Part shown: positions 37,202 to 42,334 of the stretch, one piece after another
Layout: each line of letters begins with the position of its first letter
How positions within the stretch are numbered: position 1 is the first letter of the stretch
Source of the DNA: Parasedimentitalea huanghaiensis
Lineage (GTDB): Bacteria > Pseudomonadota > Alphaproteobacteria > Rhodobacterales > Rhodobacteraceae
Assembly: GCF_009753675.1 (NCBI RefSeq)
Contig: NZ_WQLV01000008.1
Span: 62,001 to 126,000, forward strand
Length of the DNA stretch: 64,000 nucleotides
Reading direction: 5' to 3'
The notes under the pieces: generated by a model
Seen by the model: only the letters and a program-made list of their open reading frames with translations
What the model was told of the DNA's origin: nothing
Databases searched by the model: none
Translations under genes and position numbers: made by a program

Positions 37202-37230
37202 TTCCGGCCCCCAAGTGGGGCCGGAACTCG
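37202..37230 (+). terminator. Intrinsic terminator of thrS
   Basis: TTCCGGCCCC-CAAGT-GGGGCCGGAA is a perfect 10-bp stem, followed by CTCGTTTTA. It lies 24 bases after the thrS stop codon. Confidence 0.75.
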
Positions 37231-37400
37231 TTTTACACGACAGAAGCTATTGTAATTAAACAGTTTACCAATCTGCGCTTTGTCACAAAATCTGACGCGC
37301 ACGTGACACACAAGCTCGTGTCTTCAATGTCGATAATTGGTCGGTTAGGGTTTGTCTGTAACAACACGAAACCGAGCTTTATCAAAAAAGGACTTCCCAC

Positions 37401-37706
37401 ATGTCTAACACCGCTAAATCCCTGGTTGTCGCAAGTGCCGTCGCCGCCGCCCTGTCCGCAGCGGCCACCACACCTGTAGCGGCCCAGTCCAAAGAGAAGT
37501 GCTATGGCGTGTCGCTGGCTGGCCAGAACGATTGCGCAGCTGGCCCTGGAACCACCTGTGCCGGCACATCCGTCACCGATTATCAGGGCAACGCCTGGAC
37601 ATTGGTTGATGCGGGATCTTGCGAAGGCATTGAGCTGCCTGCGGCGGCGGACGGTACGGCCCGCAATGGCTCGCTGGAAGCACTCGCCCGCGACATCCCA
37701 GCCTAA
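37401..37706 (+). CDS. bufA: Bufferin precursor peptide (DUF2282, BufA1 type)
   Basis: A 101-aa precursor with a signal peptide (residues 1-28, ending PVAA before QSKEKC). Four cysteines, C34, C45, C53 and C74, sit in the pattern [13 protein letters not shown], then TTCAG, and [15 protein letters not shown], which is the DUF2282 signature. In described bufferins, cysteines are converted by an MNIO enzyme to 5-thiooxazole and the product binds copper in the periplasm. The gene is directly followed by a DUF692 enzyme, a DUF2063 partner and a DoxX protein, the standard set. AAAGGA precedes the start. A hairpin after the stop may raise the precursor's share of the message. Confidence 0.9.
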
Positions 37707-37719
37707 ATCAACACGACAA

Positions 37720-37749
37720 GCGGGGCGGGATAGTAATTTCTCGCCTCGC
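37720..37749 (+). promoter_or_regulatory. Stem-loop between bufA and bufB
   Basis: GCGGGGCG and CGCCTCGC form an 8-bp stem with one G-T pair around a 14-base AT-rich loop, without a T run. Such a stem after a precursor-peptide gene can act as partial terminator or mRNA stabiliser so that precursor exceeds enzyme. Inferred from position. Confidence 0.5.
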
Positions 37750-37801
37750 GTTTCCTCGCCGGTCACTTGACCACTTCCCACTGGACCAGACGAGAAATAC
37801 C

Positions 37802-38659
37802 ATGCTGGACACCACCTTTCCCCAGAGCGACTTGCCTGCTACGGCTGGTGTTGGCTACAAACCCCAGCATTTTTCTCAAATCCTCGAACACCCTGGCTCT
37901 GTTGGCTGGCTAGAAATCCATGCTGAAAACTACATGGGAGACGGTGGTCGACCCTTAGCGCAGTTGCGCCGCCTTTCTGAACAATTCCCGATCTCTGTTC
38001 ACGGTGTCGGTCTTAGTATCGGGGGGGAAGCACCGTTAGATACTGACCATCTGGCCCGCCTGAAGCAGCTGATTGAATGGTTGAACCCAGCCAGCTTTTC
38101 CGAACATCTGGCCTGGTCCACCCATGACGCACATTTCTACAACGACCTGTTGCCGTTGCCCTATACCAACGACTCGCTGATCCGCATCTGTGATCATATT
38201 GATCAACTACAGCGAACAATTGGTCGGCAAATGTTACTGGAAAACCCATCCAGCTATCTCGCATTTGAGGATAGCACATGGTCTGAACCCGAGTTCCTGA
38301 CCGAGATCGCCAACCGCACCGGTTGTGGATTGTTGCTGGACGTCAACAACGTCTTTGTCTCAGCCTCCAACCTCGACTTTTCCCCACACGGCTACATCGA
38401 TGCCTTTGCGCTGAACCGGGTTGGTGAAATCCACCTTGGCGGTCATGATACCGACACCGATGATCACGGCGCGCCCTTGCTGATCGACAGCCACGGACAT
38501 GCCATTGCTGACCCGGTCTGGGCCTTGTTGGACTACACGCTTGAACGCTCTGGGCCCAAGCCTGTGTTGGTCGAATGGGACAATGACGTCCCCGACTGGC
38601 CTGTCCTATCGGATGAAGCAAACCGCGCTGCTTCTGCGCTCCAAAAGATCCCCGCATGA
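37802..38659 (+). CDS. bufB: MNIO-family multinuclear iron oxidative enzyme (DUF692, BufB)
   Basis: A 285-aa TIM-barrel DUF692 protein that would oxidatively modify cysteines of the precursor. The expected metal-ligand set is visible: EIHAENY (E38, H40, E42), SVHGVG (H67), EHLAW (E101, H102), LENPSSY (E147), LDVNNVFVS (D180, N182), EIHLGGH (E209, H211, H215), DSHG (D229, H231) and VEWD (E258, D260). Length fits MNIO enzymes. Stop and start overlap with bufC by 4 bases. A DUF692 enzyme beside a DUF2282 gene is the defining pair of the bufferin system. Confidence 0.93.
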   Translation: MLDTTFPQSDLPATAGVGYKPQHFSQILEHPGSVGWLEIHAENYMGDGGRPLAQLRRLSEQFPISVHGVGLSIGGEAPLDTDHLARLKQLIEWLNPASFSEHLAWSTHDAHFYNDLLPLPYTNDSLIRICDHIDQLQRTIGRQMLLENPSSYLAFEDSTWSEPEFLTEIANRTGCGLLLDVNNVFVSASNLDFSPHGYIDAFALNRVGEIHLGGHDTDTDDHGAPLLIDSHGHAIADPVWALLDYTLERSGPKPVLVEWDNDVPDWPVLSDEANRAASALQKIPA

Positions 38660-39411
38660 GCACCAACCAAAGCCAATTCACCCGCGCCATGATGGATGCC
38701 TCGATACCGGTGCCCGAGGGCCTGATGGATGCTCAAAGCCGTCCGGCGGGGCGTCGGTTCGATGTTTACCGTAACAACGTCGCCGTTTCATTGACCGAAG
38801 CCATGCACGCTGCCTTTCCAGTAATTGCCAAACTTCTGGGCAGGGAAAACATGGATGGGCTGTCAGGCCTGTACCTGCGCGCCCACCCTCCGTCATCACC
38901 GCTGATGATGTTTTACGGTGAGCATTTTCCCGATTTCCTCGCGGCGATGGAACAACTCAACCACCTGGGCTATTTGCCGGATGTCGCGCGTTTGGAACTG
39001 TCCATGCGCCGTTCATATCACGCGGCAGATTCAGTCCCCATTGACCCTGAAAAACTGGCGCAACTGTCCCCGGATGCGCTGATGCAAACAGAGGTCAAGT
39101 TCGCACCGTCCATGCAGGTGATCGCTTCCCCCTGGCCGATCTTCGACATCTGGCGCTACAATACTCAAGATGGCGCGGCCAAGCCTGATGGCGTGGCCCA
39201 GGATGTAATGATCACCCGACCCGAATTCGATCCAGCTCCCCATCTCCTGCCCCCAGGAGGCGCGGCTTTCATTGTGGCTTTGCAACGGGGCCAAGACATT
39301 GGCTCCGCTCATGAGGCCGCACTGGCTAAAACCCCTGAGTTTGATCTCGGGGCAACCTTCACCCTGCTGTTACAAGGCGGCGTAATACTTAAATTAGATA
39401 CGAAAGGATAA
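38656..39411 (+). CDS. bufC: DUF2063 partner protein (BufC)
   Basis: A 251-aa protein. The N-terminal DUF2063 domain (FTRAMMDASIPVPEGLMDAQ, then RRFDVYRNNVAVSLTEAMHAAFPVI) is followed by a C-terminal part that resembles the RiPP-recognition-like domain of BufC. DUF2063 is often annotated as a putative DNA-binding domain, but in MNIO operons its role is to present the precursor to the enzyme. It is translationally coupled to bufB (ATGA) and lies 4 bases before the DoxX gene. No transmembrane segment is seen. Confidence 0.9.
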   Translation: MSTNQSQFTRAMMDASIPVPEGLMDAQSRPAGRRFDVYRNNVAVSLTEAMHAAFPVIAKLLGRENMDGLSGLYLRAHPPSSPLMMFYGEHFPDFLAAMEQLNHLGYLPDVARLELSMRRSYHAADSVPIDPEKLAQLSPDALMQTEVKFAPSMQVIASPWPIFDIWRYNTQDGAAKPDGVAQDVMITRPEFDPAPHLLPPGGAAFIVALQRGQDIGSAHEAALAKTPEFDLGATFTLLLQGGVILKLDTKG

Positions 39412-39415
39412 GGCG

Positions 39416-39979
39416 ATGCATGCACTTGTCTCGGTTCACAATGCACTCTTCGGCCTGATCGAACGAGTTGGTGACTGGCTCATGCCTCTGGCAGGGCGGT
39501 TGATTTTTGCCTCAACTTTGCTGATCTACTACTGGAACTCGGGCTTGACCAAACTGGGGGATGGAATCTTTGGAATCTTCAGCCCATCGGTTGGCGCCTA
39601 TGCGCAAATTTTCCCGAAGCAGCTTGAAGCCGTGGGCTACGACGCATCACAGCTTTCTGTTTTTCACTGGGCTGTGGTTGTCGCCGGCACCTGGGCCGAA
39701 TTCATTCTACCACTCCTGATCATCATCGGGCTCGCCACTCGCCTGGCTGCGCTGGGAATGATCGGGTTTGTGGTGATGCAGTCCCTTACAGATGTCTACG
39801 GCCACGGCCAAACTGACATCAAAACACTAGGTGCAATGTTTGACCGTTTCCCAGACGGCATCATTCTCGACCAGCGCCTGTTCTGGGCCTTTCTGCTAAC
39901 CTATCTTGTTGTCAAAGGCGCCGGTGCAATATCTGTCGATGCCGTCTTGCGCCGTCGGGCAATGCCAGCGATCGCCTAA
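39416..39979 (+). CDS. DoxX-family membrane protein
   Basis: A 187-aa protein with four membrane segments (around residues 20-38, 75-98, 103-125 and 150-172) and the DoxX pattern LIFASTLLIYYWNSGLTKL near the start. DoxX-like proteins often end MNIO/bufferin operons and may support redox chemistry or export. Four-base spacing to bufC indicates cotranscription. A strong terminator follows, so the operon is bufA-bufB-bufC-doxX. Confidence 0.88.
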   Translation: MHALVSVHNALFGLIERVGDWLMPLAGRLIFASTLLIYYWNSGLTKLGDGIFGIFSPSVGAYAQIFPKQLEAVGYDASQLSVFHWAVVVAGTWAEFILPLLIIIGLATRLAALGMIGFVVMQSLTDVYGHGQTDIKTLGAMFDRFPDGIILDQRLFWAFLLTYLVVKGAGAISVDAVLRRRAMPAIA

Positions 39980-40000: not shown

Positions 40001-40025
40001 GGGGCGCCTTTTGGCGCCCCTTTTT
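40001..40025 (+). terminator. Intrinsic terminator of the bufferin operon
   Basis: GGGGCGCC-TTTT-GGCGCCCC is a perfect 8-bp GC stem followed by TTTTT. It lies 21 bases after the DoxX stop codon. Confidence 0.92.
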
Positions 40026-40043: not shown

Positions 40044-40586
40044 ATGCCAATTCTGGAAGTCAGACGCCACACAATGCGCGCCAAACCCGGACAACATCTT
40101 TCGCAGGATGGCGTTTCCCTTGCGCAGCACATTGGCCGCGATCTCGGGCCGTTTGATCTGGTTGTGACCAGTGAGCTACCACGCGCAATTGAAACGGCGA
40201 TTGCCATGGGCTTTGCGGTTGATCGCTACGTTGCGGACTTGGGTATCCTACCCGACATGGTCTTGGCGGCCCTTGCCTGGCCAAATTCCCTGACCGCAAT
40301 TTCAAAGATACTGGACGAGGATCAAAACTGTCTCCGATTTGCCCAGCAGCAGGCAGAACTTTGGCGAGATATTTTTGATCAGCTTTCCGACGATCAATCG
40401 GCGTTGATCATTACCCACGGCGGCATCATCGAATTGGGCGCTCTTGGTTTTCTGCCCGATAGCACCCCCAACAATTTAGGGGATGCCGTCGGTTACTGCG
40501 AAGGATTTAGGTTCACCAAACAAGGAGAGGTATTCACCTGTGAAACCCTCCAAGTTGATGAAAACCTTCGCTTAATCCACAACTAG
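40044..40586 (+). CDS. Histidine phosphatase family protein
   Basis: A 180-aa protein of the phosphoglycerate-mutase-like fold. The N-terminal RRHTMR motif at about residues 7-12 is a variant of the usual RHGE/RHAE, with H9 as the likely phosphorylated residue. SELPRAIETA (51-60) and THGGIIE (about 130-136) supply the other catalytic arginine and histidine. The unusual RRHTMR in place of RHGET is worth noting. GAAAGG precedes the start. Substrate unknown. Confidence 0.82.
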   Translation: MPILEVRRHTMRAKPGQHLSQDGVSLAQHIGRDLGPFDLVVTSELPRAIETAIAMGFAVDRYVADLGILPDMVLAALAWPNSLTAISKILDEDQNCLRFAQQQAELWRDIFDQLSDDQSALIITHGGIIELGALGFLPDSTPNNLGDAVGYCEGFRFTKQGEVFTCETLQVDENLRLIHN

Positions 40587-41038: not shown

Positions 41039-41353
41039 TCAAACGCCAAGAGCCGCTTGCGTCTCCTTGCTCCACCCCAAATATAGAACGCCATCACGCT
41101 CAATCAGCGGGCGCTTCATCAGCGCAGGGTGCGTTTTTATCAGCTCAAACGGGGATTTTAGACGCTCTTCCTGGGTCAAGCCTCGCCATGTAGTTGATCG
41201 TATATTCAACAAACTGTCGCCAAATTGCCCCAGTGCACGTTCAAGAACCACATCAGGCACCCCCTCCCTTCGAACATCCACAAGGTGAAGATCAGGCAAT
41301 AATTTCAATGCCTTCCGGCAATTGTCGCAGTTTTTTAGACCGAATAACTTCAA
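41039..41353 (-). CDS. ArsC/Spx-family thioredoxin-fold protein
   Basis: A 104-aa small thioredoxin-fold protein. LFGLKNCDNCRKALK near the N-terminus carries CxxC, as in Spx/YffB/ArsC relatives. The ending KRPLIERDGVLYLGWSKE is conserved. I place the start at TTG 41353, giving (M)KLFGLKNC with GGAA 8 bases upstream, because homologues start immediately before the first strand. A longer TTG start at 41386 is also open. The role in arsenate reduction is unproven; the usual annotation is ArsC-family reductase. Confidence 0.75.
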   Translation of the reverse strand: MKLFGLKNCDNCRKALKLLPDLHLVDVRREGVPDVVLERALGQFGDSLLNIRSTTWRGLTQEERLKSPFELIKTHPALMKRPLIERDGVLYLGWSKETQAALGV

Positions 41354-41524
41354 TTTAGCTTTCCATTTCTTTTGTAGGACGTACAATTTATAGTAGAGTC
41401 GCCTTGTTTTACTTGATTTTTTTCATAGCCATGCAAAACTCTACCTCGGCTCACTAGCCTGCCGAACGTTGCATTGATTGCCATGGCATCACTTCAATCT
41501 TCGGCCTGCTGGCTGTGCCAGAAC

Positions 41525-41546
41525 CACTTTGAAATTACTCAAAGTG
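41525..41546 (+). promoter_or_regulatory. Hairpin in the cspA 5' leader
   Basis: CACTTTG-AAATTACT-CAAAGTG is a perfect 7-bp stem 28 bases before the cspA start, just upstream of the AAGGAG ribosome site at 41559. CspA leaders are known to fold differently in the cold; whether this hairpin has such a role is inference. Confidence 0.4.
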
Positions 41547-41574
41547 ACGCGCAAGGTAGAAGGAGACACGGGGC

Positions 41575-41781
41575 ATGCCAAGCGGAACCGTGAAATGGTT
41601 TAATACGACTAAAGGCTTTGGGTTCATTGAACCTGATGAAGGCGGAAAAGATGTGTTTGTGCATATCTCAGCCGTCGAGCGGTCAGGAATGACCGGGCTC
41701 GCCGACAATCAGAAGATCAGTTACGAGCTTCAGGAAGGACGCGACGGGCGCCAAATGGCAGGCGAATTGACGTCTTTATAG
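41575..41781 (+). CDS. cspA: Cold-shock domain protein
   Basis: A 68-aa cold-shock domain protein that binds single-stranded RNA or DNA and prevents secondary structure. RNP1 KGFGFIE (residues 13-19) and RNP2 VFVHIS (28-33) are intact, and the N-terminus SGTVKWFNTTKG is canonical. The start has AAGGAG 12 bases upstream. The gene is divergent from the ArsC-like gene with a long leader, and followed by a strong hairpin. Paralogues in the genome may exist, so cspA is a family name here. Confidence 0.95.
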   Translation: MPSGTVKWFNTTKGFGFIEPDEGGKDVFVHISAVERSGMTGLADNQKISYELQEGRDGRQMAGELTSL

Positions 41782-41789
41782 TTGAGCAC

Positions 41790-41820
41790 TGCTGCGCCTA
41801 GAGCCACTCCGGGCGCAGCA
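41790..41820 (+). terminator. Transcript-end hairpin after cspA
   Basis: TGCTGCGCC and GGCGCAGCA arms pair perfectly around a 12-base loop, 9 bases after the stop codon. There is no T run, so it may act through Rho or convergent transcription. Confidence 0.6.
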
Positions 41821-41851
41821 CAACACCAAATGGCTTATTTCCGCACTCGTT

Positions 41852-42334
41852 TCAGCCTCTACGTCGTATATACTCCATCATCACACAGGCTGGATCCGCA
41901 GGTCGCAACTGAGTTTCGCCGGTCATCTCCCAGTCCTTTAGGTCAAACTTTGGGAAAAAGGTGTCAGCACCTTCGATGGTTAAATCCACCTCAGTAAGCA
42001 GCAGACGGTCTGCCATTGGCAGCATCCCTTGATAGATGCCAAAACCGCCAATTCCATAAATCCGCTGATATCCCTGAGCACGCGCCTGCGCTACAGCGGT
42101 TTCCAAGGATGGGCAAACAATCTCCGCCGCCTCGGGGTTCGACGACACAACCAAATTTAGCCGGTTCTTTAGTGGTTTGAACGGGAGACTATCCCAGGTG
42201 CTTCGCCCCATGATAATCGCCCCACCCAGCGTTTCGCGCTGAAACGCTTTCAAATCCTCTGGTGCATGCCAAGGAATTGTATTGTCTTTGCCAATGGCAC
42301 CGTTACGGGCCCGTGCCGCGATCAGAGTAATCAT
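41852..42334 (-). CDS. folA: Dihydrofolate reductase
   Basis: A 160-aa DHFR that regenerates tetrahydrofolate with NADPH. The start MITLIAARARNGAIGKDNTIPWHAPEDLKAF contains the substrate-site region, MGRSTWDSLP matches the cofactor motif, and YGIGGFGIY is the NADPH-binding glycine loop. Length is typical. It starts 2 bases after the thyA stop, so the pair is a classic thymidylate cycle operon: ThyA makes dihydrofolate and FolA recycles it. Confidence 0.96.
   Translation of the reverse strand: MITLIAARARNGAIGKDNTIPWHAPEDLKAFQRETLGGAIIMGRSTWDSLPFKPLKNRLNLVVSSNPEAAEIVCPSLETAVAQARAQGYQRIYGIGGFGIYQGMLPMADRLLLTEVDLTIEGADTFFPKFDLKDWEMTGETQLRPADPACVMMEYIRRRG

Follow-up and report, generated by a model that had tools for sequence, protein, structure and literature searches.

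Among the closest described systems, Buf1 of Caulobacter vibrioides bears thiooxazoles and protects against copper (PMC12452194). It is encoded by CC3254-CC3257 (CCNA_03363-03366), a copper-induced operon (PMC8224329) that adjoins sigF and is driven by SigF at a promoter of the GTAAC-N16-CGAA type (PMC3511200), in this case GTAACC-N16-CGAA; a promoter of the same type is used by RpoE7 to drive the buf operon of S. meliloti (PMC6180224). Within the Rhodobacteraceae, the family considered below, the SigF-type buf operons of Paracoccus and Rhodobacter (for example loci L131, L113 and L130) have a promoter of the SigF type about 74-79 nt ahead of bufA and, downstream, an ECF sigma gene, which is present in three of the SigF-type loci examined, with NrsF beside it confirmed in L131. 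Two further groups, the Buf2 bufferins and the captophorins (fontiphorin, oxazolin, gonophorin), rely on an MNIO enzyme and a PME type 1 (PME1) partner that install 5-thiooxazoles on secreted cysteine-containing peptides (PMC13097082), and their precursors have 6 or 12 cysteines or EGKCG repeats.

The window analysed here, a 64,000-nucleotide stretch of the Parasedimentitalea huanghaiensis genome (contig NZ_WQLV01000008.1, positions 62,001 to 126,000), contains an operon (Table 1) that shares with Caulobacter Buf1 the DUF2282-DUF692-DUF2063-DoxX gene order (PMC3511200) and the four-cysteine precursor family, with the Paracoccus and Rhodobacter loci the core genes and the family, and with the Buf2 and captophorin systems the pairing of MNIO and PME1. 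It differs from the first in lying behind thrS with a different upstream element and no NrsF, from the second in its BufB, to which theirs is only 55-59% identical, and from the third in its precursor, which is a DUF2282 protein instead.

Table 1. Features of the buf locus, in coordinates of the window
Feature	Position	Strand	Description
Stem-loop dividing thrS from the buf operon	37202..37226	+	10 bp, thrS terminator-like
bufA-upstream element	37292..37323	+	Candidate operator or promoter, ~109 nt before bufA
bufA	37401..37706	+	DUF2282 (Buf1) precursor, 101 aa, Cys 34/45/53/74
Intercistronic hairpin	37720..37749	+	11 bp, without strong T-run
bufB	37802..38659	+	MNIO (DUF692) bufferin maturase
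bufC	38656..39411	+	DUF2063 partner protein, PME type 1
doxX	39416..39979	+	DoxX-family membrane protein
Intrinsic terminator of the operon	40001..40020	+	8-bp all-GC stem and T5 run

Judged by sequence, 37401-39979 is an ordinary Buf1 bufferin operon, correctly recognised in the initial annotation, and is one further member of a large known family. The DUF2282 and DUF692 similarity on which that annotation relied was recovered in Pfam profile searches, BufA scoring 81.5 bits against PF10048 (cut-off 22.4) and BufB 345 bits against PF05114 (cut-off 25); the same holds for BufC with PF09836 (82.5 bits, cut-off 27.2) and DoxX with PF07681 (32.7 bits, cut-off 23.6). Among NCBIfam models, BufB exceeds the curated cut-off of MNIO_BufB (NF050167, 373.9 versus 310 bits), and BufA lies below that of BufA2 (20.5 versus 60 bits). 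All gene coordinates and junctions proposed earlier proved correct, including the 4-bp ATGA overlap of bufB and bufC and the 4-nt gap between bufC and doxX, as did the description of a complete operon with its own terminator: the four genes are present and a strong terminator follows. The bufA-bufB-bufC-doxX order, which had been suggested for comparison with other MNIO operons, is the known core order of Buf1 operons (PMC12452194), Caulobacter CC3254-CC3257 included. On the upstream side, the stem-loop behind thrS is preserved in the genus alignment, and no sigma-70 promoter was found close to bufA. Directly past the buf terminator lies a histidine-phosphatase-like gene (40047-40586), which is not part of the operon since it stands downstream of it in only 2 of 7 genus relatives; genes for an ArsC-family protein, a cold-shock protein and dihydrofolate reductase (41042-42334) are also found after the operon.

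The nine BufB residues H67, H102, E147, D180, N183, H211, D229, H231 and E258 are invariant across 27 homologues and align with the iron ligands of the solved MNIOs 3BWW, TglH and MbnB, which bears out the full metal-ligand set previously attributed to the enzyme. When mapped via 3BWW, N183, D229 and H231 would correspond to N175, D242 and H244 of HvfB, the site-3 residues required for HvfB activity (PMC13419390). D260 appears to occupy the position of the catalytic base proposed for FonB, with N261 at what would be the neighbouring specificity position, in place of Phe or Asp; N261 is consistent with the variable residue described for DUF2282-type MNIOs (PMC13097082). The AlphaFold model of BufC (pLDDT 92) has only two significant matches in the PDB, TglI (8hci, E 4.6e-7) and NGO1945 (3dee, E 2.4e-4), both of which are MNIO partner proteins, and these matches together with the PF09836 domain place BufC with the DUF2063 plus RRE-type partners (PME type 1). 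Because BufC and DoxX both score under the corresponding NCBIfam family cut-offs (37.7 versus 142 bits for HvfC, 26.9 versus 80 bits for HvfX), their subfamilies are, by profile score, not of the HvfC and HvfX types.

At the N terminus of BufA a basic start, a hydrophobic stretch and TPVAAQ give the look of a Sec-type signal peptide, as judged by eye; the protein had no match among solved structures. The initial annotation had raised the possibility that the roseobacter cysteine spacing alters which cysteines are modified. This idea was not upheld, as the arrangement C-X10-C-X7-C-X20-C (spacing 11-8-21) is the same in all 42 family BufA proteins examined and a spacing of 11-(7 to 9)-21 recurs in 54 loci, most of them belonging to other families within this class and phylum, so that an unusual spacing in the window BufA was rejected. 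Outside the family, the middle cysteines are 7, 8 or 9 residues apart while the outer distances of 11 and 21 stay constant (L165, L168, L174 and others). In published Buf1 modification falls on the two central cysteines and a disulphide links the outer two (PMC12452194); by this pattern the window BufA is expected to be modified at C45 and C53, and C34 and C74 would be joined by a disulphide.

A DUF2282 gene is present in 8 of 8 genomes of the genus and in 141 of 199 genomes of the family. The host genome has a single DUF2282 and a single MNIO gene, with no second copy of either, which excludes several bufferin copies. In the family bufA usually follows thrS directly; of 80 named loci, 68 have thrS upstream of buf and 65 show the complete thrS-bufA-bufB-bufC-doxX arrangement, several of the remaining loci ending at a contig border. 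Of the named relatives, Zongyanglinia marina is closest, with BufA and BufB both 98% identical, and Parasedimentitalea denitrificans comes next among the nearest relatives. The wide presence in the family and the thrS synteny therefore mark the operon as a long-standing trait of the family, passed on mostly by vertical descent, and no acquired oddity. Two loci deserve separate mention: L067 (genome G007) has two bufA genes in tandem ahead of a single bufB, and L129, a typical roseobacter thrS-buf locus, sits on a contig titled Nocardioides marinus, an actinobacterium, and probably comes from a mislabelled or contaminated assembly.

The stem-loop after bufA noticed in the initial annotation is real: it folds better than shuffled sequences (z = -3.1), and stems scoring at least 9 occur in 74 of 78 distinct bufA-bufB intergenic regions of the family (95%), against 8% of shuffles. 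The hairpin sequences vary widely despite the presence of the stem, and outside the family such stems are found in 10 of 34 intergenic regions. This conserved hairpin is a modest new observation. The earlier proposal of a possible part in setting an excess of precursor is fair, and probably the hairpin protects the transcript or partly terminates it, leaving more precursor than enzyme. Whether it might be a leaky terminator or attenuator, and not an mRNA-stability element, can be judged from the bases behind the stem: in 26 of 78 relatives 4 or more of the next 8 bases are T and some stems (for example those of L129 and L137) finish in T4-T5, but only 10 of 78 have 5 or more, and the window hairpin is followed by GTTTCCTCGC. 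We regard such a terminator as possible and lean somewhat against it. Because so few of the hairpins precede a T-rich tail, a role in RNA stability or processing is no less likely than partial termination; intercistronic hairpins with a role of this kind are known in Rhodobacter.

Upstream of bufA, alignment revealed a block far more conserved than its flanks, with the consensus CTGACG-N4-CGTGA-N-ACAC-N3-CTCGTG-N2-T; it consists of two imperfect dyads, T[G/C]ACG-N4-CGTGA and CAC[A/G]-N4-CGTG, 15 bp apart. Real upstream regions mostly have 0 to 5 mismatches of 21, against 6 to 12 for the best match in shuffled ones. The element, a further modest observation that goes beyond the initial annotation, was found once in the host genome, by pattern and by profile (E 4.5e-8). 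When 101 family genomes were searched with the profile, 40 of 51 matches were located 150-200 nt before a DUF2282 domain. Among the other 11, one, in G071, is that genome's own bufA-upstream site read on the reverse strand, and one lies between bufA and bufB in G063 (L254:3416-3453), where the element is not upstream of bufA. The nine remaining matches, once inspected, fall inside the ORFs of unrelated genes and were taken as chance, so that a wider regulon was rejected. A riboswitch or other known RNA was likewise rejected, the search of Rfam returning no match beyond a sub-threshold one to osmY on the opposite strand.

The two best blocks of the element are 17 nt apart, a usual promoter spacing, and the buf operons of Caulobacter and Sinorhizobium use ECF sigma factors, so the element could be read as an ECF-sigma promoter (-35 CTGACG, 17-nt spacer, -10 CTCGTG) and not as a transcription-factor site. 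We consider this unlikely: dyad symmetry and a third conserved block between the hexamers, here GTGA-N-ACAC, are not typical of ECF promoters, and the element is present in a single copy in the genome, whereas an ECF factor usually drives its own gene as well. Of 118 loci from the family, with a small number of species represented twice, the element occurs in 84 and a SigF-type promoter in 16, and no locus has both; at the thresholds used, 10 of 89 thrS-linked loci have neither. A strict SigF-type promoter was found in none of 74 loci of the thrS lineage, and a loose pattern gave one match (L055) in 89. Among the 101 genomes the element lies upstream of bufA in 40 and NrsF is encoded in 14, with no overlap (Fisher p = 0.0007, ignoring relatedness). 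In the BufB tree, the window and every element-bearing row sit on one long, fully supported branch, and most SigF-type rows lie outside it. The window locus does not belong with the SigF/NrsF-controlled buf operons: NrsF is missing from the host genome, and GTAAC-N16-CGAA has no match about 60-110 nt upstream of bufA. Since NrsF is absent, the element is single-copy and it never accompanies a SigF promoter, the simplest reading suggests that the regulator was replaced in the roseobacter lineage and that another one acts at the element.

Altogether, the following model is, as a whole, highly probable. In an operon placed behind thrS and closed by its own terminator, BufB, as an iron-dependent MNIO, would act together with BufC, whose fold is like that of MNIO partners which present the substrate; by analogy with characterised relatives, the two would turn C45 and C53 of BufA, while it is still in the cytoplasm, into 5-thiooxazoles, and a disulphide would connect the outer C34 and C74. 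Sec would export BufA, which would bind copper in the periplasm and help growth in excess copper, with DoxX as a putative accessory membrane protein. SigF/NrsF control would have been replaced by a different putative regulator at the tandem-dyad element, some 109 nt ahead of bufA, and the hairpin after bufA would shield or partly terminate the transcript, yielding more precursor than enzyme. A function of the peptide in handling some other metal or stress (gold, mercury, sulphur, oxidative stress) and not copper is improbable: the name gig, first given to Buf1 operons, refers to their induction by gold, and DoxX and MerC fusions hint at other stresses (PMC12452194), but the only characterised Buf1, that of Caulobacter, buffers copper (PMC12452194) and the window offers no pointer to another metal.

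The operon shows bufferin 1 to be near-core among roseobacters. We are evenly divided on the broader proposition that the roseobacter bufferin operon was freed from SigF/NrsF and captured by a dedicated putative regulator that acts at one tandem-dyad site in each genome, with the hairpin fixing the precursor-to-enzyme ratio. The hairpin offers a testable way for the cell to make far more peptide than enzyme, while the element provides the exact site for a pull-down of the regulator and predicts a non-SigF regulator of bufferins, responding to copper or another stress.
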